From an uncultured Lachnospiraceae bacterium (GTDB taxonomy: Bacteria; Bacillota; Clostridia; Lachnospirales; Lachnospiraceae), in NCBI GenBank assembly GCA_947625015.1, contig CANQMR010000008.1, forward strand, positions 36,852-100,851: DNA of 64,000 bases, in the 5' to 3' direction. The translations under genes and the position numbers were made by a program. Positions 43,684 through 62,976 of this stretch are shown one piece after another (the stretch's first letter is position 1; each line of letters opens with the position of its first letter). The notes below the pieces were generated by a model. The model was not told where the DNA came from and made no database searches. It worked only from the letters and a program-made list of their open reading frames with translations.

Positions 43684-44193
43684 ATGTGGTATGTCCTTTA
43701 CACAAAGGCAGGAGAGGAAGAAAAGTGCGCAGATAAATGCAGAAATGCGTTTTCTATTCAAGCGTATTGCAGCGTTTTTGTTCCTCGGTATATATGTATG
43801 AAACGATACCAGGGAGAATGGCATGAAGAAAAAAAGGTGCTGTTTCCGGGATATTTTTTTGTAGATACGGAATGTCCAAAAGATATTGAGGCAATGATTA
43901 CTTCTACTTTGTCTGACCTTGTGTCGCCGGTTCGCGTTGGGCGTGATTTTGTCCCGATTTATCCGGAAGAACAGAAGTTTCTGGATGAGTTGTTTGATGC
44001 GGATTATACGGTCCCCATGTCTAGGGGGGATATTGTATCGGGCAGATTTGAAATCTATGAAGGTCCTTTGATGGACAAGCCGGAGCATATATGCAGAGTA
44101 GACCGACATAAGAGATTAGCCGAATTTACATTACCTATTCATGGTGAGATCAGAAAAATAAGGCTTGGATTGGAGATCGTTAATAAGTCTTAA
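43684..44193 (+). CDS. loaP: NusG-paralogue antiterminator LoaP
   Basis: This 169-residue protein has an N-terminal NGN domain (WYVLYTKAGEEEK at the start, VLFPGYFFVDTE in the core) and a C-terminal KOW-like domain (about residues 110-165). Specialised NusG paralogues of this type, in Firmicutes LoaP, lie at the head of long polysaccharide or natural-product operons and let RNA polymerase pass terminators. They act through an RNA hairpin in the leader. RBS GAGGTGG precedes the ATG. Its place directly before a 20-kb EPS operon fits this role. Confidence 0.88.
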   Translation: MWYVLYTKAGEEEKCADKCRNAFSIQAYCSVFVPRYICMKRYQGEWHEEKKVLFPGYFFVDTECPKDIEAMITSTLSDLVSPVRVGRDFVPIYPEEQKFLDELFDADYTVPMSRGDIVSGRFEIYEGPLMDKPEHICRVDRHKRLAEFTLPIHGEIRKIRLGLEIVNKS

Positions 44194-45152: not shown

Positions 45153-45171
45153 TATAAGAACAGAAAAAATT

Positions 45172-46368
45172 ATGGTGTTAAATAAAGAGAATATAATGCA
45201 GTTGTCTTTATTGATCTTTATTTTTTCCATGCCTTTTGGATTTAAAATATTTGGCCGGTTTGCAATTTCAAACATAGGTCAGATAGTGTCATTTTTATTG
45301 CTGGCTCCACTTATTCTTACAGAATTGAAAAAGAGGTATTTATCCTATAATGTATGCATGATTACGCTTATGATTTTAGCTTCTGCATTTTCGGCATTAA
45401 GGTATGGAATATCAATGCATTGGGGGCATATTGGATTTTTTTCAATGATTAGCCTTTATATTAGTTATTTTGTTATGTGTTTAAGCATGAACACCTCTCA
45501 ACTACTGCTAAAGGTACAGGATTGTTTTAAAGTAAGCGCATATGTATTCTTAATTCCGTATATTGTAATGGGATACAATGGAATTGTAATAAATAAAAAA
45601 GCCTATCTGTCATATTTGTTTGATGATAAATCACATGCGGTAATATTTTTTGCTTTTTATGCATTTATTTCTTTGGGCTTGATTTCATCCTCAAAAAAAT
45701 ATGTAATTTCAATATTATATTTTATTTTGTCGCTAACAACGACTTCAAGATTAGGGATAATATTTATTCCGTTTTATTTATTAGCCTTTTACAGAGAAAA
45801 TATGGCTCATGTAAAAGTATTTTGGAAAAAACTTGTCTTATTGGTAGTAGTAGGAATAGTAATAGGCTGCGGTATCTGGTTTGTATACCAAAATGCAAAG
45901 TATTTTTCAGTTTTTGGTCGTATTGGAAATTCAAGTGGTTCTACGAGATCACACTTAATATTAATTTATTATTCCTTACAGATAAAGTTTAGCAATATAA
46001 TTAATATTCTGTTTGGTACTGGGCCGGGCAGCTTTTCCAATATTCTGATATGCAGCCATATGAATTTATCTGAAATCATGAGGGATGGTGGTTCCTATCG
46101 GGCAATTATAAATGGGGTATTACCGGTTCATTCAAGTCATTTTGAATTGTTAATGGATTTTTCTTTGATAGGTTTTTTTGTATATATAAAATTTTTATGG
46201 GTAGTTTTTCAAAAATTAAGAAAACAAAAATTAATTATTGATTTGCTATTTTTCATTGCATTTATGGGGGCAGAATTATTTTATAGTACTTTTCATGAAG
46301 GACTTTTTTATATGATTTTATTGTATTTATACATTAGAAGTCTACAGATAAATAAAGAATGGAAATAG
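45172..46368 (+). CDS. Wzy/O-antigen-ligase-like polysaccharide polymerase
   Basis: This protein of about 398 residues has 10-12 membrane segments and an extracytoplasmic loop before the last ones (GTGPGSFSN..., PVHSSHFELLMDF). This loop, with a conserved His, is the pattern of Wzy polymerases and O-antigen ligases that join repeat units outside the membrane. The start is uncertain. ATG 45172 avoids overlap but has a weak ribosome site; ATG 45112 has AAGGAAAGG but overlaps the previous gene by 41 bp. Confidence 0.75.
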   Translation: MVLNKENIMQLSLLIFIFSMPFGFKIFGRFAISNIGQIVSFLLLAPLILTELKKRYLSYNVCMITLMILASAFSALRYGISMHWGHIGFFSMISLYISYFVMCLSMNTSQLLLKVQDCFKVSAYVFLIPYIVMGYNGIVINKKAYLSYLFDDKSHAVIFFAFYAFISLGLISSSKKYVISILYFILSLTTTSRLGIIFIPFYLLAFYRENMAHVKVFWKKLVLLVVVGIVIGCGIWFVYQNAKYFSVFGRIGNSSGSTRSHLILIYYSLQIKFSNIINILFGTGPGSFSNILICSHMNLSEIMRDGGSYRAIINGVLPVHSSHFELLMDFSLIGFFVYIKFLWVVFQKLRKQKLIIDLLFFIAFMGAELFYSTFHEGLFYMILLYLYIRSLQINKEWK

Positions 46369-46380
46369 GATGATTTATAG

Positions 46381-47424
46381 ATGAAACCAAAACTTCAAAT
46401 TATACAATTAATAAGGGGATATGCGGCAATATCGGTTTTTTTATGTCATTTTTTAGAAGAGTATACTATAAAAATTCATTTGACAGGTCAACTAGGCGTA
46501 GCGGTGTTTTTCTGGATTAGCGGTTTTTTGATGATATACACCACATATGGAAAAACAAATAATTATTTAGTGAATCGCTTACTCCGAATATTACCTTTAT
46601 ATTATCTTACAACGCTTGGCGTGTTTGTAATCGGGCATATTGCACCCGGACTTTTGCATACAGCAGATCCGACTGTTGAAAATCTCCTTAAATCATTGCT
46701 CTTTATACCATGCAGGATAGAGGGGACAAATTTGATACAGCCGCTATTAGCTGTAGGCTGGACATTATATTTGGAAATGTTTACTTCAATTATTTTTTAT
46801 ATAGCGCTTAAGATTTTTAAATCCAATGTAAAGGCTGGTTATACAGTTGTAGTTGTTTTGCTGATGTTTGTATTCATAAATGAAGTAACGAAGACAAATG
46901 TAGTATGGCTGAATATATATGGTGGAAGAGTTTCTTTATATTGGGCAGCAGGTATCCTGTTTTCTATCTTTTATAGCAAAAAGGCTTCGTTAAAACAACG
47001 GTACAGTAAAGATATTTCCAATATATGGAAGTCTGTGTTAGTGGTTTTAGGTTGTGGAGTTTTTTTGATTTGTGAAAATTATTATAGGCTTACCATTATA
47101 GAGATATTATTGATTTCAGTATTGATGAGCGTAGCTATTTTGTTATTTTCAAATATCAGGTTTCCAAAGACATATTTGTTCTTAGGAAAAATCAGTTATT
47201 CCTTTTATTTGCTGCATTATTTTGTGATAAAGGCATTTTCAAGGTTAATAGCGCCAAAAATGAAATCGGGGGGGGTAATTCTAAATCTGATATTATCATT
47301 TGCTATTACGGTGTTTATGTCGCTTATTTCTTATGAACTAATAGAAAATAGAGCAACAAGTTGCTTGAGAAAAACAATATGTAACATTTCTATGGAGATA
47401 AAAAATGATAAATTTAAAAATTAG
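46381..47424 (+). CDS. Acyltransferase 3 family membrane O-acyltransferase, with poly-G tract
   Basis: This 347-residue protein with about ten membrane segments has the family motif near the N-terminus (QLIRGYAAISVFLCHF, with Arg and His) and FFWISGFLM. Such enzymes usually acetylate or acylate sugars of surface polysaccharides. The gene contains an 8-G run (47268-47275) near codon 296, now in frame, so loss or gain of one G would cut off the last membrane segments. It overlaps the next gene by 20 bp. Confidence 0.88.
   Translation: MKPKLQIIQLIRGYAAISVFLCHFLEEYTIKIHLTGQLGVAVFFWISGFLMIYTTYGKTNNYLVNRLLRILPLYYLTTLGVFVIGHIAPGLLHTADPTVENLLKSLLFIPCRIEGTNLIQPLLAVGWTLYLEMFTSIIFYIALKIFKSNVKAGYTVVVVLLMFVFINEVTKTNVVWLNIYGGRVSLYWAAGILFSIFYSKKASLKQRYSKDISNIWKSVLVVLGCGVFLICENYYRLTIIEILLISVLMSVAILLFSNIRFPKTYLFLGKISYSFYLLHYFVIKAFSRLIAPKMKSGGVILNLILSFAITVFMSLISYELIENRATSCLRKTICNISMEIKNDKFKN
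47268..47275 (+). repeat. Poly-G tract (8 G), in frame
   Basis: The run lies inside the acyltransferase gene, in an AT-rich context. The current length keeps the frame open (codons for K-S-G-G-V-I). Confidence 0.95.
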
Positions 47425-48427
47425 CATAATAATACCAGTTTTTAATGCGGAGCGTTACTTAGATAATTGTATTAAAGCGATTATAAATCAAACTTATTCT
47501 AATTTTGAATTGTTATTGATTGATGATGGTTCTACAGATGAATCATATCAGATTTGTAAAAGATATGAAACGGATAGTCGTGTCCGCATTTATAAACAGG
47601 GAAATGCAGGAGTTTCTGCTGCAAGAAACAAAGGAATACAGTTGTCTACGGGAGATTACATTTGGTTTATAGATGCTGATGATTGGATTGAGCCGGAAGC
47701 ACTGGAAAAATTTGTGGAAGCATATGAACGGTTTAATGGAAGGATAGACATTTTTTCTTTTAATTATATGAAATATCAAAAGGGAAAAAAGATACCAATA
47801 TCCAATATTCAGCAAGGCTACTATACCAATGAAGAATATTTGAAATTTATGCTTAATCCGTCTAATCATTTTGGGTTGGTCTGGAGCAATATATATTCAT
47901 CAAAAATAATGAAAGGCCATAGGGTAATGTTTGATGAAAATCTTACCCAATCAGAAGATGTGGATTTTTCGGTTCGCATTGGCAGGTATGTGGATAATAT
48001 TTATGTATCTGAAAATGTATTTTACAATTATCGGATTACCAGCGGATCATTAAGCAGAAAATATAAAGAGGGGATAGCAGATAGTTATATAACATCACTT
48101 GAAAAGATTCAAGAAAATGTAGCGGATTATCATAATAGCAGCATGCAAAATGATTTTAATGCGTACATTAGAGTTATTGTAATTTTTATTATTTTAAATG
48201 ATTACTATCATCCTGAAAATAATAAAAGCAGGCAATGGAAATTAAGCAAACTAACAGAACTGTTAAGGCAACCATTGATTGCGGAAGCCTTGAAGCGAAT
48301 GGATAGTAAATCAATGAGTAAGGATAAAATGATATTATTGCATTTTATTAAATCCAAAAATGTTGCGGGAATAAAATTCATTTCAAAGGTAAGGTATTTG
48401 AAAATGAATGAAATAGATAATGAGTGA
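47405..48427 (+). CDS. Family 2 glycosyltransferase
   Basis: This 340-residue GT-A enzyme starts with SIIIPVFNAERYLDNCI, followed by LLIDDGSTD, a DxD motif in FIDADDW (metal and sugar-nucleotide binding) and the acceptor-site TQSEDVDFSVR (ED motif). RBS TGGAG lies before the ATG, which overlaps the acyltransferase gene. It adds one sugar to the repeat unit on the lipid carrier at the cytoplasmic face; donor and acceptor cannot be read from sequence. Confidence 0.92.
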   Translation: MINLKISIIIPVFNAERYLDNCIKAIINQTYSNFELLLIDDGSTDESYQICKRYETDSRVRIYKQGNAGVSAARNKGIQLSTGDYIWFIDADDWIEPEALEKFVEAYERFNGRIDIFSFNYMKYQKGKKIPISNIQQGYYTNEEYLKFMLNPSNHFGLVWSNIYSSKIMKGHRVMFDENLTQSEDVDFSVRIGRYVDNIYVSENVFYNYRITSGSLSRKYKEGIADSYITSLEKIQENVADYHNSSMQNDFNAYIRVIVIFIILNDYYHPENNKSRQWKLSKLTELLRQPLIAEALKRMDSKSMSKDKMILLHFIKSKNVAGIKFISKVRYLKMNEIDNE

Positions 48428-48473
48428 TAGTGAATTATATATCAGTCAAAAATAGCTTATTGGAGGAGAGCAT

Positions 48474-49418
48474 ATGAAAACGGCATTTATTTGTCCATTA
48501 TATGACATGGTAAATCATTTTGATTTAGCAATAAATTTGTATAAGAGTAAAATAAAATACAAGATAGAAGCGGATCTTATATTTATTTTTTCAAATGGTG
48601 AGCATAAGGATAAGTTTTTACATAGAGTGAAAAATGAAATCGGTATTGATTCAATATTATATAGTATTATTCCGGCAAAATTAAATGAATACAGTGCGAA
48701 GGCAGTCACAAAAAAGCTATACGGACTCAGGAAATATATGAACGATTATAATTATATAATTTTAGTGGATTGTGAGTCGGTGTTTCTCAGGAGTTTTGAT
48801 GTGGATGCATTGGCTGAAGAAATATGGGAATCGAGGAGTATGCTTGCCTCTAATCTGTCTCCCAATGGTTTTTTGATAATGAGAAAATGTTATAAAGCTA
48901 TGGGATTATACTATAACAAAAAATTGCGAAAGGCATTAGATTTTTTTAAATATAACTTCTGGTTTAATGAATTGCAGGTTTATAAATGTTCATACCTGCG
49001 AGGCTTTTTTGAGTGGCTTAAAAATTTTGATATTGAAAAAATATGTAATACATGGGAGTGCTTTGAATATTATGTATTTTATGCCTATTTATGCATTGAA
49101 CATGATATGGGGATAAAAAAATACCATTATTTAAGTTCGGGAGGAATCAATGAATATTTAGACATTTTTAGTATTAAAAAGCAGAGAGAAATTATTGATA
49201 AGATGAATGTGCACTGGGTTTCTTCAAAGGAAGCGATAACTGATGCGGTTGTTATGCAGTTTCATCTCGACAGGAGTCGGCAAACAGAGGGACATGGCTA
49301 TAAAACGGCTCGAAGTGTGACAAGAAAATTAATATTAATTTTATTGCGCTATATCATTTATGTTATAGAAATTCCGGAAATGTTAGTAAAATCAAAAACA
49401 GCGTATAACGATAAGTAA
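48474..49418 (+). CDS. Unknown EPS protein, possibly GT-A-like glycosyltransferase
   Basis: This 314-residue protein has no convincing family assignment. The N-terminus (KTAFICPLYDMVNHFDLAIN) and an acidic segment in the middle (YIILVDCESVFL) resemble the strand and DxD-like site of GT-A fold nucleotide-sugar enzymes. A late HWVSSKEAITDAVVMQFHL contains possible metal-binding His residues. A hydrophobic C-terminal helix (about residues 285-305) could attach it to the membrane. RBS GGAGGAG is strong. Its place among glycosyltransferases supports a sugar-transfer role. Confidence 0.55.
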   Translation: MKTAFICPLYDMVNHFDLAINLYKSKIKYKIEADLIFIFSNGEHKDKFLHRVKNEIGIDSILYSIIPAKLNEYSAKAVTKKLYGLRKYMNDYNYIILVDCESVFLRSFDVDALAEEIWESRSMLASNLSPNGFLIMRKCYKAMGLYYNKKLRKALDFFKYNFWFNELQVYKCSYLRGFFEWLKNFDIEKICNTWECFEYYVFYAYLCIEHDMGIKKYHYLSSGGINEYLDIFSIKKQREIIDKMNVHWVSSKEAITDAVVMQFHLDRSRQTEGHGYKTARSVTRKLILILLRYIIYVIEIPEMLVKSKTAYNDK

Positions 49419-49454
49419 TCAAAAAACGGATGCAGAAATATAAGAGAGGTTAAA

Positions 49455-51113
49455 ATGTCTGATTCAAGAATAATAATTCCAAGTGCTAAAATAGTTCCCG
49501 AAGATTTATGGAGTCTTGGTAAGTTACCGGGGATTATATATCCAATCAATCAGCAGATTGTCTTTGATTATCTCTATGAGCAATATAGAGATTTTCCTGT
49601 TATTGATATTATCTGCTATGAAAAATCAGATAAGGTGCGGCGTCGGCTTAATAAATATACAAAAAAAGGAGTTAATATAAAAACGCTTGATGAACTTAAA
49701 GACTTAGGGCATACGATATATTTTGCATTAGAGGGTGTCGATGAGCCAGTTATCATAAATTTTGCTGATACAATCGTTACCGAAGATGTTTCATTGATTG
49801 CTGATCGTGATGCTTTTTACTGTTATGAAGATTATATGTGTGAAACATGGACATATTTTGATGAACAGGCTGGCTTCATCACTAACATATATGACAAAAA
49901 TTCTGTTAATCCTGAAATGCAAAAAAAACTTTTTGTGGGTGTATTCAGTATTACAGATACAGCTTATTTTAGAGAATGTCTTCAAGAGGCTTTTGCTTGT
50001 AAAGAACTTGGTATGAGTACATTCTATTATGCTATTCGGACTTATAGCAACAAGCATCCTATGGAAGCAGTTTCTACTAGGAATTGGTTTGATATCGGCC
50101 ACCAGGACAAGTATTACAATTCGAAACTTGAGGTAAGGGCTAGAGAATTTAACCATATTACGATTGATAAAAATAGAGGGATTTTAAAAAAAACCAGTGA
50201 TGACAAGGACAAGTTTATTGGAGAAATTAAATGGTATATAAAGCTGCCCATGGATATTGAGTATGTAAGACCTAGAATTTTTGATTATTCAACTGTGTAT
50301 GAAGAGCCATATATATCAATGGAGTATTATGTGTATCATACATTGCATGAACTTTTTTTGTATGGTGAATTAACGAAACAACAGTGGATAGATATTTTTA
50401 GGCATATACGTTTTGTTTATGATGATTTTAAAAAGTATACGGTAAATGATGATAAGATTGTGGCGTCGTTAGAAGATATGTACTTAACAAAAACACTTCA
50501 AAGACTTAATAAATTAAAGGCTGATAAGAGATTCCTCGGATTTTTTACAAAGCATATTACTGTAAATGGTAAAGTATATATTTCACTTGATGAGGTCGTG
50601 CAAAGACTCAAAAAAATTATTCCGGAATATCTTTATGACGTAAGCGAATTTGCCATTATCCATGGAGATTTATGTTTTTCCAATATAATGGTCGATAGCA
50701 ATTTGACTTTTATAAAAGTGATAGATCCGCGTGGAAAGTTTGGCTTTTTTGATATTTATGGAGATCAAAGATATGAATTAGCAAAGTTATTTCATAGCAT
50801 AGATGGTAAATATGATTACATTATAAAAGATCTGTTTGAAACAACATATGAATTAGACAACGCTGAAATAAATTATATGATTTCAGAGAGAAATATGGAT
50901 TTTGATTTATATGAAATTTTCAAAGAGGCATTTAAAAATGAAATAGGGGGCGATATAAAAAAGATAGAACTTATAGAAGCGTTGTTGTTCTTAAGCATGA
51001 TACCGCTTCATGGAGAGAGTATTGACCATCAGATGACTATGCTTGGAACAGGATTAGATATTCTCAACAGGGTAGTTGATATTACAGTAAGCGGAGGGGA
51101 TAGGGATGTTTGA
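49455..51113 (+). CDS. Nucleotidyltransferase-like / choline-kinase-like fusion protein
   Basis: This 552-residue protein has two parts. Residues about 1-240 look like a nucleotide-sugar pyrophosphorylase fold (IIIPSAKIVPEDLWSLGKLP, a domain resembling sugar nucleotidyltransferases but without a clear G-rich loop). Residues about 270-530 resemble APH/choline kinases, with IHGDLCFSNIMVD (Brenner motif, catalytic Asp) and VIDPRGKFG (metal-binding Asp). The gene overlaps the next (HAD) gene by 8 bp and is followed by a nucleotidyltransferase. The set probably phosphorylates and activates a small polar substituent for the polysaccharide; the substrate is not identifiable. Confidence 0.7.
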   Translation: MSDSRIIIPSAKIVPEDLWSLGKLPGIIYPINQQIVFDYLYEQYRDFPVIDIICYEKSDKVRRRLNKYTKKGVNIKTLDELKDLGHTIYFALEGVDEPVIINFADTIVTEDVSLIADRDAFYCYEDYMCETWTYFDEQAGFITNIYDKNSVNPEMQKKLFVGVFSITDTAYFRECLQEAFACKELGMSTFYYAIRTYSNKHPMEAVSTRNWFDIGHQDKYYNSKLEVRAREFNHITIDKNRGILKKTSDDKDKFIGEIKWYIKLPMDIEYVRPRIFDYSTVYEEPYISMEYYVYHTLHELFLYGELTKQQWIDIFRHIRFVYDDFKKYTVNDDKIVASLEDMYLTKTLQRLNKLKADKRFLGFFTKHITVNGKVYISLDEVVQRLKKIIPEYLYDVSEFAIIHGDLCFSNIMVDSNLTFIKVIDPRGKFGFFDIYGDQRYELAKLFHSIDGKYDYIIKDLFETTYELDNAEINYMISERNMDFDLYEIFKEAFKNEIGGDIKKIELIEALLFLSMIPLHGESIDHQMTMLGTGLDILNRVVDITVSGGDRDV

Positions 51114-51504
51114 GGATTATTCGTTCATATTTGATATTGATGGTACACTTTGTCCAATCAAGAAACGAGATGAACAATATGAGGATATTGTGCCATATAA
51201 AAACATAGTGGATAAAATTAGATATTATAAAGAGCATGGCGCTAAAATCGTATTGTTCACATCGCGGAATATGAATACTTACAATGGAAATATGGGCCTG
51301 ATTAATAAGAAAACAGCCAGAGTTCTTACGGAATGGCTTGATAAGTGGGATATCCCTTACGATGAAATTATTTATGGTAAGCCATGGCCAGGACATAAAG
51401 GATATTATGTTGACGATAGAACAATAAGGCCGGATGAATTTTTAAATTGTACAATAGATGAATTAAATGAAATATGTAAAAAATGTAAAGAACAGTCCCA
51501 ATAG
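51106..51504 (+). CDS. HAD-family phosphatase, small capsule type
   Basis: This 132-residue protein has HAD motif I FDIDGTL, motif II LFTSRN, a Lys in KPWPGHKG and motif III YVDDRT. Such minimal HAD proteins without a large cap occur in capsule loci next to nucleotidyltransferases. The ATG overlaps the end of the preceding kinase-like gene and has GGAGGGG upstream. Confidence 0.85.
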   Translation: MFEDYSFIFDIDGTLCPIKKRDEQYEDIVPYKNIVDKIRYYKEHGAKIVLFTSRNMNTYNGNMGLINKKTARVLTEWLDKWDIPYDEIIYGKPWPGHKGYYVDDRTIRPDEFLNCTIDELNEICKKCKEQSQ

Positions 51505-51516
51505 GAGAAATTTAAT

Positions 51517-52233
51517 ATGACGATAATTATTACCATGGCTGGACTTGGTTCCAGATTTAGAAAAGCAGGATATGACTGCCCTAAATATAAAATAGAGGCA
51601 AAGGGTAAAACACTATTTCAATGGTCTATGGATAGCCTTATAGGTTACAACAAGATTGTATCAAAATATATATTTGTTGTTCGGAAGGAGGATAAAAGTG
51701 AAAACTTTATTCGAGATAACATGGCCCAATATAACATTTCTAACATTGAAGTAGTCGAGATAGATTATGCTACGGATGGACAGGCAACTACCTGTATGCT
51801 TGCGATTCCTTATTGCAATCCTGATGAGGAGATAATGATATACAATATTGATACATATGTAGAGCCAAATGAAATGAGGTACGAAAGTATTGAGGGTGAC
51901 GGGTATATTCCATGTTTTCATGCGGCTGGAGAGCATTGGAGTTTTGCGAAAGTCGGTCCAGATGGCAATGTGACGGAAGTAAGGGAAAAAGTAAGAATTT
52001 CAGATAATTGTACCTTAGGGGCCTATTATTTCAAATCAGCGGCTCTTTTTAAAGAATTATATAAAGAATATTATGCTGACGATAGCAAAATGGAGAAAAG
52101 CGAAAAATATATTGCGCCACTTTACAATCGTATGATTGAAAGGGGCATGAGCGTTACGATAAGTATTGTAAATGAAAAAAGGGTTCATGTGTTGGGAACG
52201 CCGGAAGAACTGGAAAATTTTTTGAAAGAGTGA
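51517..52233 (+). CDS. Sugar or cytidylyl nucleotidyltransferase
   Basis: This 238-residue NTP-transferase has the G-rich loop in TMAGLGSRFRKAGYDCPK and a substrate-binding IYNIDTYVEP. Together with the kinase-like and HAD genes just upstream (12-bp gap) it likely makes an NDP-activated precursor. RBS AGGAGA precedes the ATG. The downstream 80 bp lead to the frameshifted GT4 gene. Confidence 0.85.
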   Translation: MTIIITMAGLGSRFRKAGYDCPKYKIEAKGKTLFQWSMDSLIGYNKIVSKYIFVVRKEDKSENFIRDNMAQYNISNIEVVEIDYATDGQATTCMLAIPYCNPDEEIMIYNIDTYVEPNEMRYESIEGDGYIPCFHAAGEHWSFAKVGPDGNVTEVREKVRISDNCTLGAYYFKSAALFKELYKEYYADDSKMEKSEKYIAPLYNRMIERGMSVTISIVNEKRVHVLGTPEELENFLKE

Positions 52234-52312
52234 ACATGAGATACAGAAAGATAAACTGCTGCTTATATTTAGCCTGTCATATAGTGCGAAGGAAAGTGAG
52301 GATATCGAGAAA

Positions 52313-53399
52313 ATGAAAAAAATCACATTTTTAATAAATGATATGAGCGGCGGGGGGGGGTACTGAGCGTGTTACAGCACAGGTTGCCGGGGCATTAGCA
52401 GATACATATACTGTATCTATTTTATCCCTCACGTTGAAAGAAGAGATAAAATTTCATCTGGATGAAAGAATTTGCGTCATATCACTTCAGGGAGAAAAGT
52501 TTGATAACAAATTTCAAAAAAGAATATATGCAATGAAAAGTATCAGGCACTTTTGCCATAAGACAAAAGTTGAGACATTGATTGTAGTGGAAACCTATAA
52601 AATTTTTAATGTCTTGCCTGCTATCAGAACGATAAAAAAGCAGGGAATCAAACTGATTACTTGGGAGCACTTTAATTATTTTGCAGATAAAAAATATTCT
52701 ATCCGGTGGTGGTGCAGGTATTTTGCAGCAAGATATTCCGATGCAGTAGTGGTGTTGGGAAAGGAAGATAAAGCAAATTACATGGATAATCTGAAAAATA
52801 TAAAAAGAGTTGAACACATCTATAATCCAGTGATTTTTCATACATCAGAAAAAGCGGATTTGTCAGTAAAGAGGGTATTAGCTGTGGGTAGACTGGAGGA
52901 GCAAAAAGGATTTGATATGTTGTTGGATATATGGAAGCAAATAGAGGATAAGGGAGAGTATGACGAGTGGAAATTAAGCATAATTGGCAGTGGCTCAAAA
53001 CAACAGGAATTGCTGGAACAAAAGGAAAGTCTGGGATTAAAACAGGTTGAGATTTTGCCCTTCCAGCGAAGAATAGAGGATTTTTATAAAAGCAGTTCTG
53101 TTTTTGTGCTTTCTTCAAGATATGAAGGATTTGGACTTGTGCTTTTAGAAGCGCAGGCATATGGACTGCCGTTGCTAAGTTTTGATGTGAAAGAGGGGCC
53201 GAATGAAATCATTACTGATGGCGAAAATGGATATTTGGTAAAAGCGTTTGATGAGAAAGAATTTGCCGAAAAATTGCTATATTTAATGGGGGATGAAAAA
53301 GAACGCCTTCGCTTGGGTGCAAATGCTGATAAAGATTTATGGCGGTTTTCGCAGGAGAATGTGATTCCGCAATGGATAAAATTAATAGAAGGACTGTGA
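52313..53399 (+). pseudogene. Family 4 glycosyltransferase, switched off by +1 G in a poly-G tract
   Basis: The gene starts at ATG 52313 (MKKITFLINDMSGGG...), then 9 G at 52352-52360 push the frame into TGA at 52364. With 8 G the frame reads on as SGGGGTERVTAQVAGAL into the open frame that ends at 53399, giving about 361 residues. This restored N-terminus is the usual GT4 start. The rest has GT4 features: AVGRLEEQKGF, EGFGLVLLEAQAYGLP and the donor-binding EGPNEI. Without the tract fixed, translation could only begin at a poor TTG near 52434, lacking the N-terminal Rossmann strand. It is either phase-variable and now OFF, or a homopolymer error. Confidence 0.88.
52352..52360 (+). repeat. Poly-G tract (9 G), out of frame
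   Basis: The run begins after codon 13 of the GT4 gene. An 8-G tract restores the GGTERV motif. Confidence 0.95.
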
Positions 53400-53405
53400 G
53401 AAATT

Positions 53406-54560
53406 ATGGACAGGGTTGGAATCATAACAAGATATTTCAATAATTTTAATTATGGCGGCTTGCTCCAAAGTTACGCTTTGCAGCAATTCATACAGAGTAT
53501 GGGATTTGATGTAAAACAGATTTCCTTTACTTATACGAAAAGCAGGGGCAGTTTATATATAAATACAGCAATAAAAAATATAATTAAAAGTTTATTTTTT
53601 CACGAATATAGCAGGCATGTCCGTAGATGGCGCACCGGGCTAAAAGCGTTTGAAAGGACAATTCCCCACACTGAGCAGATTTATTCAAATAAAAACATAA
53701 AAGACTGTGTGAAGGAGTTTGATATTTTCATATGTGGCAGCGACCAGATATGGAACTTGGATTTTTCAAATTTATATTATTACGCGCTCGGTTTCGTACC
53801 TGACAATAAGAAAAAAATATCTTACAGTGCCAGCATCGGAAAAAGCAGGCTGGATAAGAACGAAAAAGCACAGATGTATCCTTATCTAAAGCGGTTGGAT
53901 TATATTTCCCTGCGCGAAACCCAGTTGCAGGCGGAAATTTCAAAGGATATACAAAAAGAGGTGGAAGTTGTCTGCGATCCGGCAATGCTGTTGAACCGGA
54001 AACAATGGGATAAAATTAAAAAAGCAAGTGATTTGAAAAATTATATATTTGTGTATTTATTAGGTGATGATGAAAACCAGAGGAGACTGGTTACACAGTT
54101 CGCGAAAAAGAAGGAATTACAAATTGTATTTATTCCTTATACGCTGCGCCTTTTCCGCCTGAAGAAGATTTCCCAATTTGGCGATGTTCAGCCTGATAAC
54201 ATTGACCCGGCTGGATTTATAGGACTCATAGAAAGTGCAGAATATGTAATTACGGATTCATTTCATGCCAGCGTATTTTCCATACTATACCATACGGATT
54301 TTTATGTTTTTGAAAGAAAAGGCGGAGAGGGAGATGAGAATATGGGTTCAAGATTACACACGCTGCTGGATAAGATGCTTTTAAAGGATAGGTTATTGCC
54401 GGATGATGTCACTTTAGAGGAAATGTTATCGGCAGATTCCATATCAGAAGCAAAATGGGAGACTGTAGATAAGGAAGTGGAGGCATATAGGGAGAAATCT
54501 ATATGTTTTTTGAAAAAGGCATTGTGCTTTCATAAGGGGGCAGAAAGGATGAAGATATGA
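53406..54560 (+). CDS. Polysaccharide pyruvyl transferase family protein
   Basis: This 384-residue protein has the family start (VGIITRYFNNFNYGGLLQSYALQQ), FICGSDQIWN and the late TDSFHASVFSILYHTDF motif. Family members add pyruvate ketals from phosphoenolpyruvate to sugars, introducing negative charge, though some act as glycosyltransferases. The ribosome site is weak (GAAGGA), so coupling to the preceding gene is likely and could depend on its phase state. The 3' end overlaps the next ATG by 4 bp. Confidence 0.87.
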   Translation: MDRVGIITRYFNNFNYGGLLQSYALQQFIQSMGFDVKQISFTYTKSRGSLYINTAIKNIIKSLFFHEYSRHVRRWRTGLKAFERTIPHTEQIYSNKNIKDCVKEFDIFICGSDQIWNLDFSNLYYYALGFVPDNKKKISYSASIGKSRLDKNEKAQMYPYLKRLDYISLRETQLQAEISKDIQKEVEVVCDPAMLLNRKQWDKIKKASDLKNYIFVYLLGDDENQRRLVTQFAKKKELQIVFIPYTLRLFRLKKISQFGDVQPDNIDPAGFIGLIESAEYVITDSFHASVFSILYHTDFYVFERKGGEGDENMGSRLHTLLDKMLLKDRLLPDDVTLEEMLSADSISEAKWETVDKEVEAYREKSICFLKKALCFHKGAERMKI

Positions 54561-55436
54561 AGAAAATATTTAATTATTTAAAGAAAATACTTAAGTACAT
54601 GAGGAATACCCTTAACTTTTTCCTAATAGGTGGATTTAAAAATGGAGGGATAACATATGTCAATGTAGCTCTCTTGAATGACTGCGCTTTACTGGAAGGA
54701 AAGAATGTGGTTATTACGGGGGGGGTATAGTGGAATCGGATTGGCGATTGCGAAAAGGTGTATCGAATCCGGGGCCAATGTGCTCATTACGGGAAGAAAC
54801 GAGGAAAATTTAAAAGGGTGTGTGGAAAGACTGGGAGAAAGAGCATCATATTATGTGCATGACATTCGTGAGGTACATGAAAAAAGTTATGATGAAATTT
54901 TGGGAAGATTTGATCAGGTGGATTGTCTTGTTAACAATGCGGGTATTTCTCCTACATCGTCTCTTTTTCCTGAATGTGAATATGATTTGTATAATGATGT
55001 TTTTGATACAAATCTGAGAGGATTATACTTTCTGACGCAAGCATATGTCAGGCAGTGTATAGAAAAAAAGGTCAAAGGCGTAATAGTAAATGTGGCTTCT
55101 AATAGTGGTCTTGTGGGAGTGACTTCCCCTTATGGCTTGAGCAAAAAGGCAGTTGTATCTTTTACGGAGGGAATAGCGAAAAAATGTTACAAATATGGAA
55201 TCCGATGCAATGCCGTAGCGCCGGGAGTGACATTGTCAAATATTACAGGCTGGAGCAGGAAATATTCGCCGGAAGGAAATCTGTACGATATAAATGTGAG
55301 AACAAAAAGGGTTTTACGGGCTGAGGAGATTGCAGAAGTGACATTATTTCTCCTTAGTAACCGTTCCGCCTGTGTGAATGGACAGACAATCGTTTGTGAT
55401 AATGGAGGCACTCTGGCAGCGGGCTCTATTGAATAG
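54557..55436 (+). pseudogene. Short-chain dehydrogenase/reductase, switched off by +1 G in a poly-G tract
   Basis: ATG 54557 overlaps the preceding stop and reads through an N-terminal extension of about 45 residues into KNVVIT. An 8-G run (54718-54725) then gives a TAG at 54728. With 7 G it would continue ITGGYSGIGLAIAKR, the NAD(P)-binding TGxxxGIG motif, to the stop at 55436. The rest is an intact SDR: NNAGISPTS, active-site Ser and YGLSK (Tyr, Lys), and a C-terminal SACVNGQTIVCDNGG. The gene at 57997-58839 is a close paralogue with the same extension. It probably modifies a sugar intermediate. Confidence 0.88.
54718..54725 (+). repeat. Poly-G tract (8 G), out of frame
   Basis: The run lies exactly in the glycine-rich NAD(P)-binding motif of the SDR gene. 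A 7-G tract restores the frame. Confidence 0.95.
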
Positions 55437-55474
55437 GAAAGAATAGATAGTATGGGAAGGGTAGGTGAAATGCG

Positions 55475-57025
55475 GTGGCAGACCGTGTGGAGCGGAGCAA
55501 AAAGAATATTATATGGACCTTTGTCGGGAAAATCGTAAATTTATTATTTCCTTTTATCACGCAAACCTGCCTGATTTACATATTAGGAGTTCAGTATATA
55601 GGATTGGACGGATTGTTTAAGTCCGTTTTGATGATATTGAGTTTAACGGAGCTTGGCATAGGCAGTGCGCTTGTATTCAGCATGTACAAGCCGATTGCTG
55701 ATGGGGATGATGAAAAGGTATGTGCCCTGCTAGCGTTTTATAAAAAATGCTACTATGTTATCGGAAGCGTCATATTAGTATTGGGACTTGCCCTTCTTCC
55801 CTTTATACAGAATTTAATTTCAGGGGAAGTGCCGGATGACATTAACATTTACGTCTTGTACAGTGTTTACCTGTTAAATACGGTATTGAGCTATTACCTG
55901 TTTGCCTATAAAACTTCCCTACTGAATGCCTGTCAGATGGTGGATATGATAAGCAGGGTGGATATTGTCGCAAACAGCGCCAAGTGTATACTGCAATGTG
56001 TAGGGTTACTTTTATTGCCTTCCTATTATATGTTTGTCTGGGTGATTCCGTTAAGCACCGTATTGCGCAATTTGTTTGTGGAATATCTTTCAAGAAAAAA
56101 ATATCCCCAATATGTATGCAGGGGCAAACTGCCGGCAGAGGATATTCATGTAATTAAAGATAAAGTAAAAGGATTGTTTTTTCAGAGTATAGGAAATGTT
56201 GTGCTGTTCGGTGTGGATAATATTGTTATATCGGCGTTTTTAGGTTTGAGTCTGCTTGGAAAATACAATAATTACTTGTATATACATAATGCTTTGGTAA
56301 ATTTGGTGGGTGTAATATCAGCTTCCATTATACCGGTAGTTGGGAATAGCATTGCGGTGGAGGATAAGGAGAAAAATTACAGAAATTTCCGTCAGTTTAA
56401 TTTACTGTGGCTGTGCCTGATATCATGGTGTGCCATATGCCAGATGTGCCTGCTTCAGCCTTTTGTGAAAGTATGGGCAGGGGAGAACTTTCTGTTTTCA
56501 AAAAAAATTGCTTTTTTGTTTGTACTCTATTTTTATACCAATAAGATGGGGGATATCATATGGGTTTACAAATCTGCCGGAGGTATATGGAAAGAGGGAA
56601 GATATATACGCTTGCTAGGAGCGACAGTTAATTTATGTTTAAATATTTTTTGGGTTAGCCGCATAGGTATTGCCGGTGTTTTACTCTCTACTGTCATAAG
56701 TCTGGTTGTTATCATTGACCCATTTGGTGGGAAAGTATTATTTGATGTTTATTTTGATTATAAGCATGCATGGTTAGAGTATATAGGAACACTGCTTATG
56801 CATTTTTTGATAACAGTGTTAATCGGAGGCATTACTTATGGAATGTGCGCCCACATTTCTGAAAGTGGGATTGTGGGATTAGTTTTGCGTACGCTCATAT
56901 GTGTGCCTGTACCAATCATCTTATTGTTTTTAATATATTGCAGGGATACAAGGTTAAAGCAAACAGGAGCACTTGTTAAGCGACTTGTCAAAGCACAGGC
57001 AAGACAAAGTGATAAATCAGGTTAA
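55475..57025 (+). CDS. Wzx-type polysaccharide flippase (MOP superfamily)
   Basis: This 516-residue protein with 12-14 membrane segments begins KKNIIWTFVGKIVNLLFPFI and has GLDGLFKSVLMILSLTELGIG, the usual pattern of oligosaccharide flippases. It moves lipid-linked repeat units across the membrane for the Wzy-like polymerase at 45172. The GTG start at 55475 follows AGGTG; no in-frame ATG is near. The stop overlaps the next ATG (TAATG). Confidence 0.9.
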   Translation: MADRVERSKKNIIWTFVGKIVNLLFPFITQTCLIYILGVQYIGLDGLFKSVLMILSLTELGIGSALVFSMYKPIADGDDEKVCALLAFYKKCYYVIGSVILVLGLALLPFIQNLISGEVPDDINIYVLYSVYLLNTVLSYYLFAYKTSLLNACQMVDMISRVDIVANSAKCILQCVGLLLLPSYYMFVWVIPLSTVLRNLFVEYLSRKKYPQYVCRGKLPAEDIHVIKDKVKGLFFQSIGNVVLFGVDNIVISAFLGLSLLGKYNNYLYIHNALVNLVGVISASIIPVVGNSIAVEDKEKNYRNFRQFNLLWLCLISWCAICQMCLLQPFVKVWAGENFLFSKKIAFLFVLYFYTNKMGDIIWVYKSAGGIWKEGRYIRLLGATVNLCLNIFWVSRIGIAGVLLSTVISLVVIIDPFGGKVLFDVYFDYKHAWLEYIGTLLMHFLITVLIGGITYGMCAHISESGIVGLVLRTLICVPVPIILLFLIYCRDTRLKQTGALVKRLVKAQARQSDKSG

Positions 57026-57969
57026 TGATGAACAGCAGAAGGGAAAAATTAGTAATGAAATATTTTTTGATTTTATTTATAACAGGTATTATTTTGGAGC
57101 AATGTCTGGAGTTGATTTACAGGCATACAAATAGATATAGAATTTCTCAAGGAGGAACGGAGAACTTTCGAAAAGGAGTTCCGTCAGAGTTGGAAATTGT
57201 AAATATTGGTTCAGGACCTGGACTATATGCAATTTCTTATGAATATTCAAATAACTCAGGATTTAACTTGAGTACGGCACCTCAAAGCTATAAGTATGGT
57301 TTTCGTCTGTTAAAAAGATATAAAGACCATATTAAAAATGGCGCTATTATTATTATTATTATTATGTGTCCGCTGTCTTTTGCTTGGGTGCGCGGGACGG
57401 ATAAGCCAGGTTATTCTGATAAATTTTATGGAATTTTACCTAAGGAAGATATTGACCAGTATACGCGCGGGAGAGAATTTGCCTTAAAATGGTTTCCGCT
57501 TTTAACCAAGGTCGTTTCAAAAATTCAGACTATGAATATTAAGCAGATTACGAAAAAGGCTAATAAAGATGAGTTACCGATTGTTGCTCATTGGAAAGAT
57601 GAGTGTAAATTACAGGATTTAAAAAATCCCAGACAAGCAAAAGAGCATGAAAGGGCGTTTATGGAAAAAGTGCAAATTATAAAAAATGGCATTGACTTTT
57701 GCCTTGAAAATAATTGGCGTCCCATTTTTGTTATTCCACCTGTCCCAAGACTGACAAAAAAATTTATAAGCGATGAATTTGTTAACGTATTTGTGCGACA
57801 GAATTTACAGAAAATACGGTTGGAGTATCCGGACATTCCGCTATTGGACTATTATGTAGACGACCGTTTTACAGATGATATGTTTCAAGATGACATATTT
57901 ATGAATAAAAAGGGACAGGCAGTATTTTCACAAATTCTATTTAAAGACGTGCAGGAGTTGGAGTGTTAA
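57025..57969 (+). CDS. Unknown membrane-anchored SGNH/DltD-like EPS protein
   Basis: This 314-residue protein has one N-terminal membrane segment (about residues 10-28), and the rest is predicted outside. An IVNIGSGPGLYAISY block early and DIFMNKKGQAVFSQIL late recall the block I Ser region and the block V region of SGNH/DltD-like esterases, although the catalytic residues cannot be assigned surely. Such proteins often partner membrane O-acyltransferases, here the one at 46381. It contains a run of six ATT codons (Ile6) at 57346-57363. ATG 57025 overlaps the flippase stop; ATG 57055 is an alternative. Confidence 0.5.
   Translation: MMNSRREKLVMKYFLILFITGIILEQCLELIYRHTNRYRISQGGTENFRKGVPSELEIVNIGSGPGLYAISYEYSNNSGFNLSTAPQSYKYGFRLLKRYKDHIKNGAIIIIIIMCPLSFAWVRGTDKPGYSDKFYGILPKEDIDQYTRGREFALKWFPLLTKVVSKIQTMNIKQITKKANKDELPIVAHWKDECKLQDLKNPRQAKEHERAFMEKVQIIKNGIDFCLENNWRPIFVIPPVPRLTKKFISDEFVNVFVRQNLQKIRLEYPDIPLLDYYVDDRFTDDMFQDDIFMNKKGQAVFSQILFKDVQELEC
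57346..57363 (+). repeat. Trinucleotide repeat (ATT)6
   Basis: Six tandem ATT codons encode a run of Ile in a beta strand or buried segment. Slippage would change the number of Ile without changing frame. Confidence 0.9.
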
Positions 57970-57996
57970 TTGGGGAAGAGCGAGGTTGATATCAAG

Positions 57997-58839
57997 ATGA
58001 AGATAATAAAGAGCATCAAAAATACGGTGCGGGGTTTTCGTAAGAAAGGCTTTATACAGATTGGAGCAACTACTTACGTTCAAATAAAGCAGATTAAAGA
58101 TTGCGAAATGCTTTTGGATAAAAATATTGTGATAACCGGTGGGGGAAGCGGAATAGGATATGCCATTGCTAAGCGTTGTATTTCCATGGGCGCAAAAGTT
58201 TTGATTACAGGTAGAAATGCTAACAAATTGGAAAATGCTGCAAAAGAACTGGGAAATAATTGTAAATTTTTAGTGCATGATGTTGGAGATATCTCTCAGT
58301 TAGAAAAAGCTGTTTCGCAAATTATAAATATTTTTGATGGACGTATTGATGCACTGGTAAATAATGCAGGAATCAGCAATGGGAAAAAGTTTGATGAGGT
58401 AACAGAAGAGGATTGGAATACTTTAGTGAATGTTTTGCTGAAAGGACCATATTTTTTGACGCAACGAGTTTATCAGGAAATGCTCGGTCAAAAAAGCGGA
58501 AACATAGTAATGATATCATCAAACGGGGGGGTGATAGGGCACACAAAACCATATGGAATACTGAAAGCTGGAATCAATAATTTTGTATGCGGATTGGCGA
58601 AGGAGGGTGCAAGATATGGAATCAGGTGTAATGGTGTAGCTCCAGGTTATACAATATCATCAATCCAAAAAGAATTTGAATTAAACACAGAGGGTAATTT
58701 GTACAAGCCGGATGTGATAGATTCGAGGTGGCATTTAGCAGAGGAGATTGCTGAAATGGTATGCTTTTTATTAAGTGAGCGGTCCGTTTGTTTGAATGGA
58801 CAGGTTTTGGTTTGTGATGGCGGGGATACTTTAGTATAG
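57997..58839 (+). CDS. Short-chain dehydrogenase/reductase with N-terminal extension and poly-G tract
   Basis: This 280-residue SDR has NAD(P)-binding ITGGGSGIGYAIAKR, NNAGISNG, the catalytic Ser and YGILK (Tyr, Lys), and a C-terminal SVCLNGQVLVCDGGDTL. About 45 residues precede the Rossmann fold and match in style the extension of the frameshifted paralogue at 54557. ATG 57997 follows GAGCGAGG; a TTG at 57970 is an alternative. A 7-G run (58525-58531) lies just after the catalytic serine region and is in frame. It could stand in for the disabled paralogue or give a different stereoisomer. Confidence 0.88.
   Translation: MKIIKSIKNTVRGFRKKGFIQIGATTYVQIKQIKDCEMLLDKNIVITGGGSGIGYAIAKRCISMGAKVLITGRNANKLENAAKELGNNCKFLVHDVGDISQLEKAVSQIINIFDGRIDALVNNAGISNGKKFDEVTEEDWNTLVNVLLKGPYFLTQRVYQEMLGQKSGNIVMISSNGGVIGHTKPYGILKAGINNFVCGLAKEGARYGIRCNGVAPGYTISSIQKEFELNTEGNLYKPDVIDSRWHLAEEIAEMVCFLLSERSVCLNGQVLVCDGGDTLV
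58525..58531 (+). repeat. Poly-G tract (7 G), in frame
   Basis: The run lies in the SDR gene within the codons for S-S-N-G-G-V-I. A one-base change would remove the catalytic Tyr-Lys pair. Confidence 0.95.
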
Positions 58840-58868
58840 AAGATAACAGAATTTTAAGGAGGTTAATT

Positions 58869-60641
58869 ATGCTGGAAAAAATGCGATTTACTGATAGATG
58901 CACCGGATGTAAAATGTGTGCGGATGTCTGCCCGGTTTCTGCGATTTCTTTTGAGGAGGATAACGGAGGTTTTTGGTATCCTAAAGTTGATTCTGATAAA
59001 TGCATTGAATGTGGCTTGTGTGAAAAGAAATGTCCCAATTTAAATAATTATAAAAGTATAAAACAAGAACCCAAGGTGTATGCTGCTTGGACGAGAGATA
59101 CAAAGACGAGATTAAACTGTACCTCAGGCGGAATTTGTTATGAATTGTCAAAATATGTTATTGAACAGGGCGGATATGTGGCGGGGGTTGCATATGCTGA
59201 GGATTTCAAAAGTGCCAGATACATACTGGTCCACGATATGGAGGGTTTGACGAAAATCACACAGACAAAATACTTTCAGGCAGATACAAATGGAATTTAT
59301 GGAAAAATAAAAGAACAATTAGACAAGAGTAATATAGTATTGTTTGTTGGGACGCCTTGTTATAATGCGGCATTACATTCTTTTTTAGGGAAGGAATATA
59401 ATAATTTGATTCAATGTGATTTTGTGTGCAGGGGAAACCCTTCTCCACGTGTACATAGACTGCACATTGAGTATCGGGAAAAGATGTATGGCGGAAAAAT
59501 AGTAGTTGCCCATTCAAAGAATAAGAGGAAAGGCTGGAGTTGCTTTGGAACATATTTTAAATTTGATAATGGCAAGGAGTTTTACAAAGATCGATATCAT
59601 AATCCGACAACAATTATGTTTATTGGAAAAAATATGAATATTAGAGATTCGTGCTTTTCTTGTCATTATAGGACGATACCGAGAGTTGCAGATATAACGG
59701 TAGGTGATTTTTGGGGAATTACAGGAGTGGAAAAACAAGATTATTTTAACGGATGTTCTCTGTTGATGTTAAATTCTGAAAAGGGGGAATTGCTTTTTGA
59801 AAAGGTTAAAGGTTCGCTGAAGTATATAGAACGGACGCTTGGTGATGTGGCAAAAGGAAATCCTGCATTATATTATAATCCAGTAAAAAGCGATAAGATT
59901 GGGCAATTTCGGGAAGACATAAATGAACTGCCTTTTGGACAGGTCTTAAAAAAGTATGTAAATAAAAAGGATATTGGACAGAAAAAGGTGAGACATGGAT
60001 TACGAAAAATAATGAATTTGATTCGCAAAATCCATAAGATAGATTTAATAAAATTAATATATTATAACTTTTTTTGTGGGCGGATTGAACGAAAAAAAGG
60101 GAAATATATTATTCCATGTAAAGGGAGCTGCATTGATATTGAAAAAGGAGCTAAAGTATACATTGGAGATAATTTTATTTTAAATACTTTGCGTGTAAAA
60201 GGCTCTAAGGCAGAGTGTTATTTAAAAGTGCAAAATGGCGGTCAGTTAACTATAACGGGAAGAGTGAGGCTTGCTTATAATTCTACGCTTCATGTGAACA
60301 GAGGTGGATGTTTGAAAATTGGACAAATGGCAACTAATGCAAATTGTAATATTCAATGCTCAAACACGATTACAATCGGACATGATGTAATGATTGGCAG
60401 GGATGTTACAATTTATGATAGCGACTATCATAAAACCGGAGTCAATGATAAAAAGAGCACAGTGACAATAGGAAATCATGTATGGCTTTGCAGCAGATGT
60501 ATGGTGATGAAGGGTTCAAGAATCGGAGATGGTGCAATTATAGGAGCAGGTTCTTTTATAACCGGAAAAGTAAAATTGAGAGCAATGACTTCTCCCATGC
60601 CGACAAAGGTAATCATGGAAAATGTAAGCTGGGAAAAATAA
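58869..60641 (+). CDS. F420 hydrogenase beta subunit-like iron-sulfur protein fused to hexapeptide acyltransferase
   Basis: This 590-residue protein has two 4Fe-4S clusters at the N-terminus (CTGCKMCADVCP and CIECGLCEKKCP), then an FrhB/FdhB-type domain to about residue 370 (SGGICYELSKY, GTPCYNAAL, VGDFWGI). After a basic linker the C-terminus is a left-handed beta-helix acyltransferase (about 420-585; repeated I/V-G-x-x units, IYDSDYHKT with active His, IIGAGSFITG). Proteins like the N-terminal part occur in EPS loci and may reduce a flavin or a sugar intermediate. The fused acyltransferase suggests reduction and acylation of the same residue. RBS AAGGAGG is strong. Confidence 0.88.
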   Translation: MLEKMRFTDRCTGCKMCADVCPVSAISFEEDNGGFWYPKVDSDKCIECGLCEKKCPNLNNYKSIKQEPKVYAAWTRDTKTRLNCTSGGICYELSKYVIEQGGYVAGVAYAEDFKSARYILVHDMEGLTKITQTKYFQADTNGIYGKIKEQLDKSNIVLFVGTPCYNAALHSFLGKEYNNLIQCDFVCRGNPSPRVHRLHIEYREKMYGGKIVVAHSKNKRKGWSCFGTYFKFDNGKEFYKDRYHNPTTIMFIGKNMNIRDSCFSCHYRTIPRVADITVGDFWGITGVEKQDYFNGCSLLMLNSEKGELLFEKVKGSLKYIERTLGDVAKGNPALYYNPVKSDKIGQFREDINELPFGQVLKKYVNKKDIGQKKVRHGLRKIMNLIRKIHKIDLIKLIYYNFFCGRIERKKGKYIIPCKGSCIDIEKGAKVYIGDNFILNTLRVKGSKAECYLKVQNGGQLTITGRVRLAYNSTLHVNRGGCLKIGQMATNANCNIQCSNTITIGHDVMIGRDVTIYDSDYHKTGVNDKKSTVTIGNHVWLCSRCMVMKGSRIGDGAIIGAGSFITGKVKLRAMTSPMPTKVIMENVSWEK

Positions 60642-60713
60642 TGGCGTATAGGAATATAGCAGTTTTAAAAAGACTGTTGTATTAATAAAAAATGAATCTA
60701 GGAGGAAAGAATT

Positions 60714-60935
60714 ATGTCAGAAAGAGAAAAATTAGCGTTACTGGAGGATATGCTGGAGTTGGATGAAGGAGAGCTGTCTGCCGAGATGAAACTGGAAGAT
60801 GTATTACAGTTTGATTCCATGGCGCGCCTTTCTTTAATTGTCTTATTTGAGGATGAATTTGGAAAGAAGATAGTAGGAAAGGATATTGATGGATTTGATA
60901 CCATTGGGGATATCCTGGCAAAGATGGAGGAGTGA
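60714..60935 (+). CDS. Acyl carrier protein
   Basis: This 73-residue acidic protein has the phosphopantetheine site DSM (Ser35 in QFDSMARLS) and the four-helix ACP pattern. RBS AGGAGG is present. It opens a four-gene acyl module (ACP, SDR, KAS III-like, AMP-ligase) within the EPS operon, and is probably dedicated to that module rather than to housekeeping lipid synthesis. Confidence 0.9.
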   Translation: MSEREKLALLEDMLELDEGELSAEMKLEDVLQFDSMARLSLIVLFEDEFGKKIVGKDIDGFDTIGDILAKMEE

Positions 60936-60980
60936 AATCGTTGCATACCAAAACTTCTATAAAGGAAGGGATAGAAAAAT

Positions 60981-61739
60981 ATGTACAATCTTGTAAATTT
61001 AAAGGACAAAACAATATTAATAACCGGGGCATCCTCCGGTATCGGACAAGCTATTGCTGAGCTGCTGGATAAGCTGGAGGCGAGAGTGATTCTGGTAGCA
61101 AGGAGAGAGGATAAGCTCCGGGAGGTGCTGGACGGATTAAATAATCAGTCATCCTGTTATTATGTGGCGGATTTATCAAAACTGGATGGGATAGAGGAAC
61201 TGATAAAAGGAATTATCGCAGAACAGGGCGCGCTTGATGGTTTTGTACATAGTGCAGGAATCGGAAGTTCAAGGCCCCTCAAAACAATAAAGCCCAATAT
61301 TCTACAGGAAGTGATGAGCATTAATTTTTCTTCATTTGTAGAAATATGCAGATGCATATCTATTAAAAAGAGGTATGCAGAAAGTGGTTGCAGCATTGTA
61401 GGTATTTCATCCATAGCCTCTTGTCAGGGGAATGCAAGCAAGACCGCATATTCCGCATCAAAGGCTGCCATGGATGCAGCAGTGCGTTGCATGGCAAAGG
61501 AATTGTCAGTAAAGGGCTTTCGTGTGAATACGGTTATGCCGGGCTGGATTGAAACAGCGATTTATGAGCAGCATATGCAAAACACAAAAGGTTCTGCTGA
61601 TGTGGAGGCTGTGAGGGCAAGACAGTATTTAGGTGTTGGAAAGCCTGTTGATGTAGCAACTCTGGTGGCATTTTTATTAAGTGATGCGGCCCGTTTGATA
61701 ACCGGGGCTTCTCTTGATGTGACGGGGGGGGGCGCTTAA
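60981..61739 (+). CDS. FabG-like 3-oxoacyl-ACP reductase (SDR), with poly-G tract at its end
   Basis: This 252-residue SDR has ITGASSGIGQAIAE, HSAGIGSS (the NNAG position), Ser in GISSIAS, YSASK (Tyr, Lys) and a C-terminal GASLDVTGGGA. It lacks the N-terminal extension of the other two SDRs here and resembles ketoacyl reductases, fitting the ACP before and the KAS III after it. A 9-G run (61724-61732) ends the gene; slippage would add or change only a few C-terminal residues, so its effect is likely small or on the spacing to the next gene. Confidence 0.88.
   Translation: MYNLVNLKDKTILITGASSGIGQAIAELLDKLEARVILVARREDKLREVLDGLNNQSSCYYVADLSKLDGIEELIKGIIAEQGALDGFVHSAGIGSSRPLKTIKPNILQEVMSINFSSFVEICRCISIKKRYAESGCSIVGISSIASCQGNASKTAYSASKAAMDAAVRCMAKELSVKGFRVNTVMPGWIETAIYEQHMQNTKGSADVEAVRARQYLGVGKPVDVATLVAFLLSDAARLITGASLDVTGGGA
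61724..61732 (+). repeat. Poly-G tract (9 G), in frame at gene end
   Basis: The run encodes the last Gly residues of the FabG-like protein, directly before its stop codon. Confidence 0.95.
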
Positions 61740-61816
61740 CATGTTAGGTTTAGGTCTGTTATCCGGATTGCCGGAGAAAGATAGAATGAAGGAGTAATGG
61801 AAAGGAAGACGAGATA

Positions 61817-62920: not shown

Positions 62921-62976
62921 TAAAAATAAATATTATAATTTGACTGAAATGGAACAGCGGATAGGAGGAGTCTGGA

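Follow-up and report, generated by a model that had tools for sequence, protein, structure and literature searches.

Slipped-strand changes in the length of nucleotide runs are an established cause of switching in Campylobacter (PMC9561416), and the same process has been established for the pili of Bifidobacterium breve (PMC9187656). Campylobacter jejuni, described as being without key repair enzymes (PMC9561416), carries runs of at least seven G inside many genes for its capsule and lipooligosaccharide, with the reading frame set by the length of the run (PMC4965091, PMC8437040, PMC9561416). Here we analyse a comparable arrangement in an uncultured Lachnospiraceae bacterium, in a 64,000-nucleotide stretch of its genome (assembly GCA_947625015.1, contig CANQMR010000008.1, positions 36,852 to 100,851; hereafter the window), where five poly-G runs occur in the genes of one surface-polysaccharide operon. 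Together with further runs across the genome, these probably reflect phase variation by strand slippage across many polysaccharide genes, of the kind known from Campylobacter.

The likeness to C. jejuni extends to scale, with 29 loci in strain NCTC11168 and 26 runs of at least seven G in the genome studied here (PMC4965091, PMC8437040, PMC9561416). B. breve is a gut commensal in which a gene is split into two open reading frames (ORFs) at a G run, and slippage joins or splits them (PMC9187656). Switching has been proven in C. jejuni and was followed in B. breve by Maximum Depth Sequencing at two pilus loci with runs of G10 and G11 (PMC9187656), whereas the candidate system described here concerns many polysaccharide loci with runs of 7–10, in a different lineage and in loaP-linked operons. 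Runs near gene ends that switch the C-terminus are described for Helicobacter canadensis (PMC2823697) and resemble those found here in a FabG-like SDR and a CpsD-type kinase; the organism and the genes differ, and tail switching is here predicted from sequence. Eggerthella lenta has phase-variable capsule loci with loaP nearby (PMC13174815, preprint), which are switched as whole loci by large DNA inversions, whereas run length would here act on single enzymes. Orsi et al. reported an over-representation of poly-A/T tracts (PMC2831843). According to a review, the term phase variation requires reversibility and high-rate change that precedes selection (PMC11868660); by this rule, the poly-G system described here is candidate phase variation. 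Among the matches listed, no open-access full text describes poly-G switching in any member of the Lachnospiraceae or elsewhere in the Clostridia. The original prediction, made from the letters of the window, had called such a system notable and possibly undescribed. The mechanism is well known and the location is unusual, which makes this a known mechanism in an unusual place.

The operon, its run-bearing genes and the five runs are as follows:

43684..44193, + strand: loaP, NusG-type antiterminator gene at the operon head (NCBIfam NF033641, 131.8 bits against a cut-off of 125; Pfam NusG)
44343..62920, + strand: co-directional surface-polysaccharide operon (from ORFs and family matches)
46381..47424, + strand: Acyl_transf_3 acyltransferase with in-frame G8
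47268..47275, + strand: G8 run, in frame, codon 296 of the 347-residue Acyl_transf_3 protein
52313..53399, + strand: GT4 glycosyltransferase, split over two frames at G9
52352..52360, + strand: G9 run, out of frame, in the presumed N-terminal glycine motif of GT4
54557..55436, + strand: SDR (A), split over two frames at G8
54718..54725, + strand: G8 run, out of frame, in the presumed TGxxxGIG motif of SDR A
57970..58839, + strand: SDR (B), paralogue of SDR A, intact
58525..58531, + strand: G7 run, in frame, codon 186 of the 289-residue SDR B
60981..61739, + strand: FabG-like SDR, run within the final codons
61724..61732, + strand: G9 run, in frame, codon 248 of the 252-residue FabG-like SDR

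A scan of the whole window placed the five G runs at 47268 (8), 52352 (9), 54718 (8), 58525 (7) and 61724 (9), exactly as predicted in position and length. The two accompanying statements also hold: apart from these five, no homopolymer of G or C in the 64 kb is longer than 6 (three G6, one C6), and the operon region is the most AT-rich part, with a GC content per 4 kb of 0.32–0.38 at 44–60 kb, 0.40 in the final 4 kb and 0.39–0.49 elsewhere. All five runs lie in coding sequence, where a changed length alters the product; at 61724, the change would affect the C-terminus of the FabG-like SDR only.

Two of the five genes had been predicted to be out of frame, and both GT4 and SDR A are indeed split between frames exactly at the run. 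The GT4 frame that starts with the ATG at 52313 ends after 17 residues, immediately beyond the run, and a 350-residue open frame (52347–53399) continues; the two pieces align to residues 1–16 and 14–361 (the latter with 203/348 identical) of a single homologue, P0122. The SDR A frame from 54557 ends after 57 residues. Its pieces align to residues 8–56 and 52–292 of one homologue, P0002, and the 252-residue ORF listed at 54678 is therefore the second piece of a split gene. In both split genes the run encodes the glycine-rich N-terminal motif, which we take to be the glycine motif of GT4 and the TGxxxGIG motif of SDR A. The runs of the paralogues SDR A and SDR B occupy different sites, each gene being without a run at the other's site, which suggests that the two runs arose separately.

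The number of runs was compared with codon-shuffled controls, as the original prediction had proposed. In 1000 synonymous shuffles of the called ORFs of 44300–63940, where the count omits the GT4 run, which lies beyond the called ORF of its gene, the four observed runs of at least seven G and three of at least eight (shuffle means 0.49 and 0.13) were never reached. The runs of this operon are thus more numerous than composition and codon use predict, as expected of poly-G phase variation, and a chance product of glycine codons is ruled out for it. No run of at least seven G occurs in the rest of the window (44 kb) or in the preceding 20 kb, both non-glycan, with shuffle means of 1.6 and 0.76. 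At a further glycan locus, C2, the count of such runs was reached in 5/1000 shuffles; C4 and C14 were each non-significant alone (53/1000 and 83/1000). Across the four glycan loci, runs of 5, 6, 7 and 8 or more number 30, 2, 5 and 8, against 27, 4, 0 and 0 in 64 kb of non-glycan DNA (p = 0.0005), a comparison that is partly circular because three of the four loci were chosen for having runs.

The pattern proved wider than the multi-gene arrangement in one operon that had been claimed. The draft genome (2,824,709 bases in 47 contigs) contains 12 runs of at least eight G and 14 of exactly seven, that is, 26 of at least seven. These 26 are clustered: 17 pairs lie no more than 14.5 kb apart, whereas 20,000 simulations gave 3.3 such pairs on average and reached 17 once. 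Eleven of the 12 runs of at least eight G lie in surface-glycan genes or loci, the kind of surface target expected of phase variation; two SDRs are counted as glycan owing to their operon, and the gene surroundings at C2:82948 and C24 lay outside the examination. The genes concerned encode two Acyl_transf_3 proteins (one of which reads its run as C on the coding strand and also bears a SASA domain), GT4, two SDRs, a formyltransferase, an MBOAT protein (G10), two FkbM methyltransferases, a hexapeptide acetyltransferase (G9; EpsC-like, under that cut-off) and a tyrosine autokinase (TIGR01007, above cut-off). The twelfth run is in a 335-residue protein without a clear family. An oddity of a single operon is ruled out, since further loci bear runs. 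The length-7 runs are more mixed: five of the 14 fall within the four glycan loci, and the others were identified in part only. At G000:C23:49294 (L021:1501), a CpsD-type exopolysaccharide tyrosine kinase has a tail rich in tyrosine that ends in a G8 run, and alternative run lengths would give alternative tails, one of about 38 residues. Paralogues of the formyltransferase (locus C14) and of the MBOAT protein (C23) have no run at the corresponding site. We lean towards the view that this lineage, in which such a system is not known, has a Campylobacter-sized poly-G phasome: of its 26 runs of at least seven G, those of at least eight sit almost exclusively in enzymes that decorate polysaccharides, with one at the tail of the exopolysaccharide kinase, which would let every cell assemble one coat out of a large number of combinations.

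Among the 25 other genomes of the genus, that of a sister species, G025, shares much of the operon as a mosaic, in blocks 74–99% identical. Along window positions 44343–63925, compared with L047 of G025, blocks of 95–99% identity are interspersed with unrelated genes, which suggests an exchange of single genes. The FkbM gene of G025 has 95% protein identity and the same G8. The formyltransferase of locus C2 is in frame with G8 here, and its G025 homologue (DNA 69% identical) has G7 at the same site and is out of frame; the two G025 pieces (71 and 230 residues) align to residues 1–61 and 58–291 of the in-frame G8 gene. This pair is the closest to a putative ON/OFF pair in our data, yet it lies between two species. 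A search for FkbM length variants in the protein database found none, all 19 matches being 360–389 residues long. An SDR search of 397 family genomes, taken from a larger group, returned only this genome at E ≤ 1e-70, and a related-locus search of genome contigs returned two remote loci only, from which this genome's own records may have been excluded.

Long G runs recur across the genus, at 92 places of at least eight G in 21 of the 26 genomes (two places with identical flanks). By hand sorting, 39 lie in a gene body (19 glycan, 20 other); the remaining 53, in leaders, intergenic DNA, gene ends, contig ends or unassigned, were left out of the tally. The gene-body runs are out of frame in 7 of the 19 glycan genes and in one of the 20 others (p = 0.02), a descriptive value. 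One glycan row (G015:C81) is uncertain, L159, L160 and L164 were assigned by visual inspection with no family scan, and the 'other' rows L020, L132 and L136 have no clear family. The clearest case is an acyltransferase of G015, whose profile matches at 3–102 and 115–325 either side of a G10 run; two G015 acetyltransferases and one G017 acyltransferase look similar, with a profile scan of one side or none.

In the family, sampled as 160 genomes from a larger group, 107 genomes have a run of at least nine G and about 50, by our own count, have at least three. The highest counts, 33, 31, 26 and 20, occur in other genera (G074, G115, G047 and G170). At least five genes are split at the run in 40 stretches taken from four family genomes, most of the other stretches having no assigned function. 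The five are a GT2 (profile 1–66 and 63–164 either side), a GT4, a methyltransferase, a BspA-type LRR surface protein and one unknown; the last two are split at G11 in G095, where they lie on a 3.83 Mb contig that is about the entire genome. Runs of 20–23 at contig ends (G20 in G013; G21 and G23 in G127 and G115) resemble sequencing artefacts and were excluded.

The runs of 7 to 10 inside many polysaccharide genes are likely phase-variation switches. A copying slip that adds or drops a G would bring the enzyme into or out of frame, single cells would likely turn coat-building enzymes on and off at random, and the cells of one clone would differ in which sugar-modifying enzymes are active. The targets are mainly enzymes of decoration (acyl-, acetyl-, formyl- and methyltransferases), the loss of which would modify the polymer and not abolish it. 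At gene ends, in the FabG-like SDR and the CpsD-type kinase, slippage would swap C-terminal tails without silencing the gene. As a guess, LoaP-type antitermination would keep downstream genes transcribed despite an out-of-frame gene upstream. The candidate phase-variable capsule of the original prediction thus gains from the excess over codon use, the glycan enzymes hit, the two breaks at the run and the other frame state in the sister species, whereas switching within the strain, with slippage as its cause, its reversibility, its rate and its effect on the surface, is what we infer from them.

Several observations weigh against such switching. Three of the five window runs are in frame, and runs of 8–9 are shorter than the G10–G11 that slipped in B. 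breve (PMC9187656). G025 has GGAGGAGG and no run at the 47268 site, is without SDR A, and its GT4 homology starts at 52600, the 5' part being missing. Many runs in the genus fall in ordinary genes or intergenic DNA, and a non-glycan gene, spoIIR (G008, C127; L088:1901-2879), appears split at G9 near its start. The four runs of at least nine G in this genome are an unexceptional number for the family, given that about 50 of the 160 genomes have at least three and a few have many. In a database of 5.8 billion proteins, the closest match to SDR A is the identical out-of-frame product, on a 1,883-base contig, and the next, at 81%, is full length. The closest match to GT4 (98%, 288 residues, on two contigs) begins at an internal methionine (window 52533), which makes it likewise out of frame or cut; the next stands at 59%. 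No in-frame copy above 81% (SDR A) or 59% (GT4) was thus found among these proteins. The database copies back the DNA reading but give no in-frame sister, and are the main point for plain loss: that in polysaccharide genes, which are often dispensable and passed between species, frameshifts at accidental G runs were fixed, with no evolved or reversible switch. The 5' truncation of GT4 in G025 and the mosaic shared with that genome point the same way. Against this explanation, the two broken genes are damaged at the run only and are otherwise open (350 and 252 residues), the run site is kept in the formyltransferases (DNA 69% identical) and in FkbM (protein 95%, both G8), and the excess of runs of at least seven G needs a separate explanation. 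We regard plain loss as unlikely.

All run lengths were read from a draft assembly, and its 47 contigs, together with the artefact-like runs at contig ends in G013, G127 and G115, raise the question of whether the extra Gs are absent from the DNA and stem from assembly or base calling. This seems very improbable: the window runs lie deep inside a 100.9 kb contig, save the last, which is 2.3 kb from its end; errors are not expected to prefer glycan genes; the out-of-frame SDR also occurs on the separate 1,883-base contig, which may or may not come from another sample; and G095 has its two G11-split genes on a contig of about whole-genome size. The open frames retained past the run, and the out-of-frame nearest copies, would also be accounted for if the DNA length stayed constant and some transcripts or ribosomes changed frame at the run, so that every cell made both products. 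Such slippage at the level of RNA or the ribosome is the least probable explanation, as the formyltransferase homologues differ in DNA run length and frame, and one conserved intergenic element, described below, has 6, 7, 8 or 10 G across 25 genomes; with homologous runs of differing length, the DNA length itself changes over evolution. Slipped-strand phase variation, if true, would mean that multi-locus simple-repeat phase variation is no speciality of pathogens, since a mainly commensal lineage would direct a poly-G phasome at its surface sugars. It would bear on the variation of phage receptors and antigens in such bacteria, and annotated frameshift pseudogenes in their genomes may be switches.

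The operon has the arrangement of a LoaP-regulated one, with loaP (NF033641, above cut-off) heading a long co-directional series of genes. It comprises DUF4422, acyltransferase, GT2, GT4, pyruvyltransferase, SDR, flippase, hexapeptide/FrhB, ACP, FabG-like and KAS III genes. Promoter- and terminator-like sites inside it are not commoner than in shuffles. The window ends at the contig end, near which an AMP-binding gene (window 62977–64000) ends after 320 residues; its G025 form has 690.

The conserved intergenic element lies beside ftsH and has the form TATAATGTATT-G(n)-TTACAAG (G000:C19:28126-28149; in L116, L117 and L064 near 1500–2030). It occurs in 25 of the 26 genomes of the genus, with n = 6 in six genomes, 7 in 16, 8 in two and 10 in one. 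On the other strand, it can be read as a promoter with poly-C in the spacer, followed by a short transcript that has a terminator-like hairpin at its end; an Rfam search of this poly-C element gave no match near the gathering score. A similar element with G10 is present in G127, of another genus. Runs of G8–G9 also occur in the ribosome-binding region directly before start codons (L079, L082, L063, L158 and L119), where their length could tune translation. Among the genes preceded by such runs are those for an acyltransferase, a cupin and polysaccharide synthesis.

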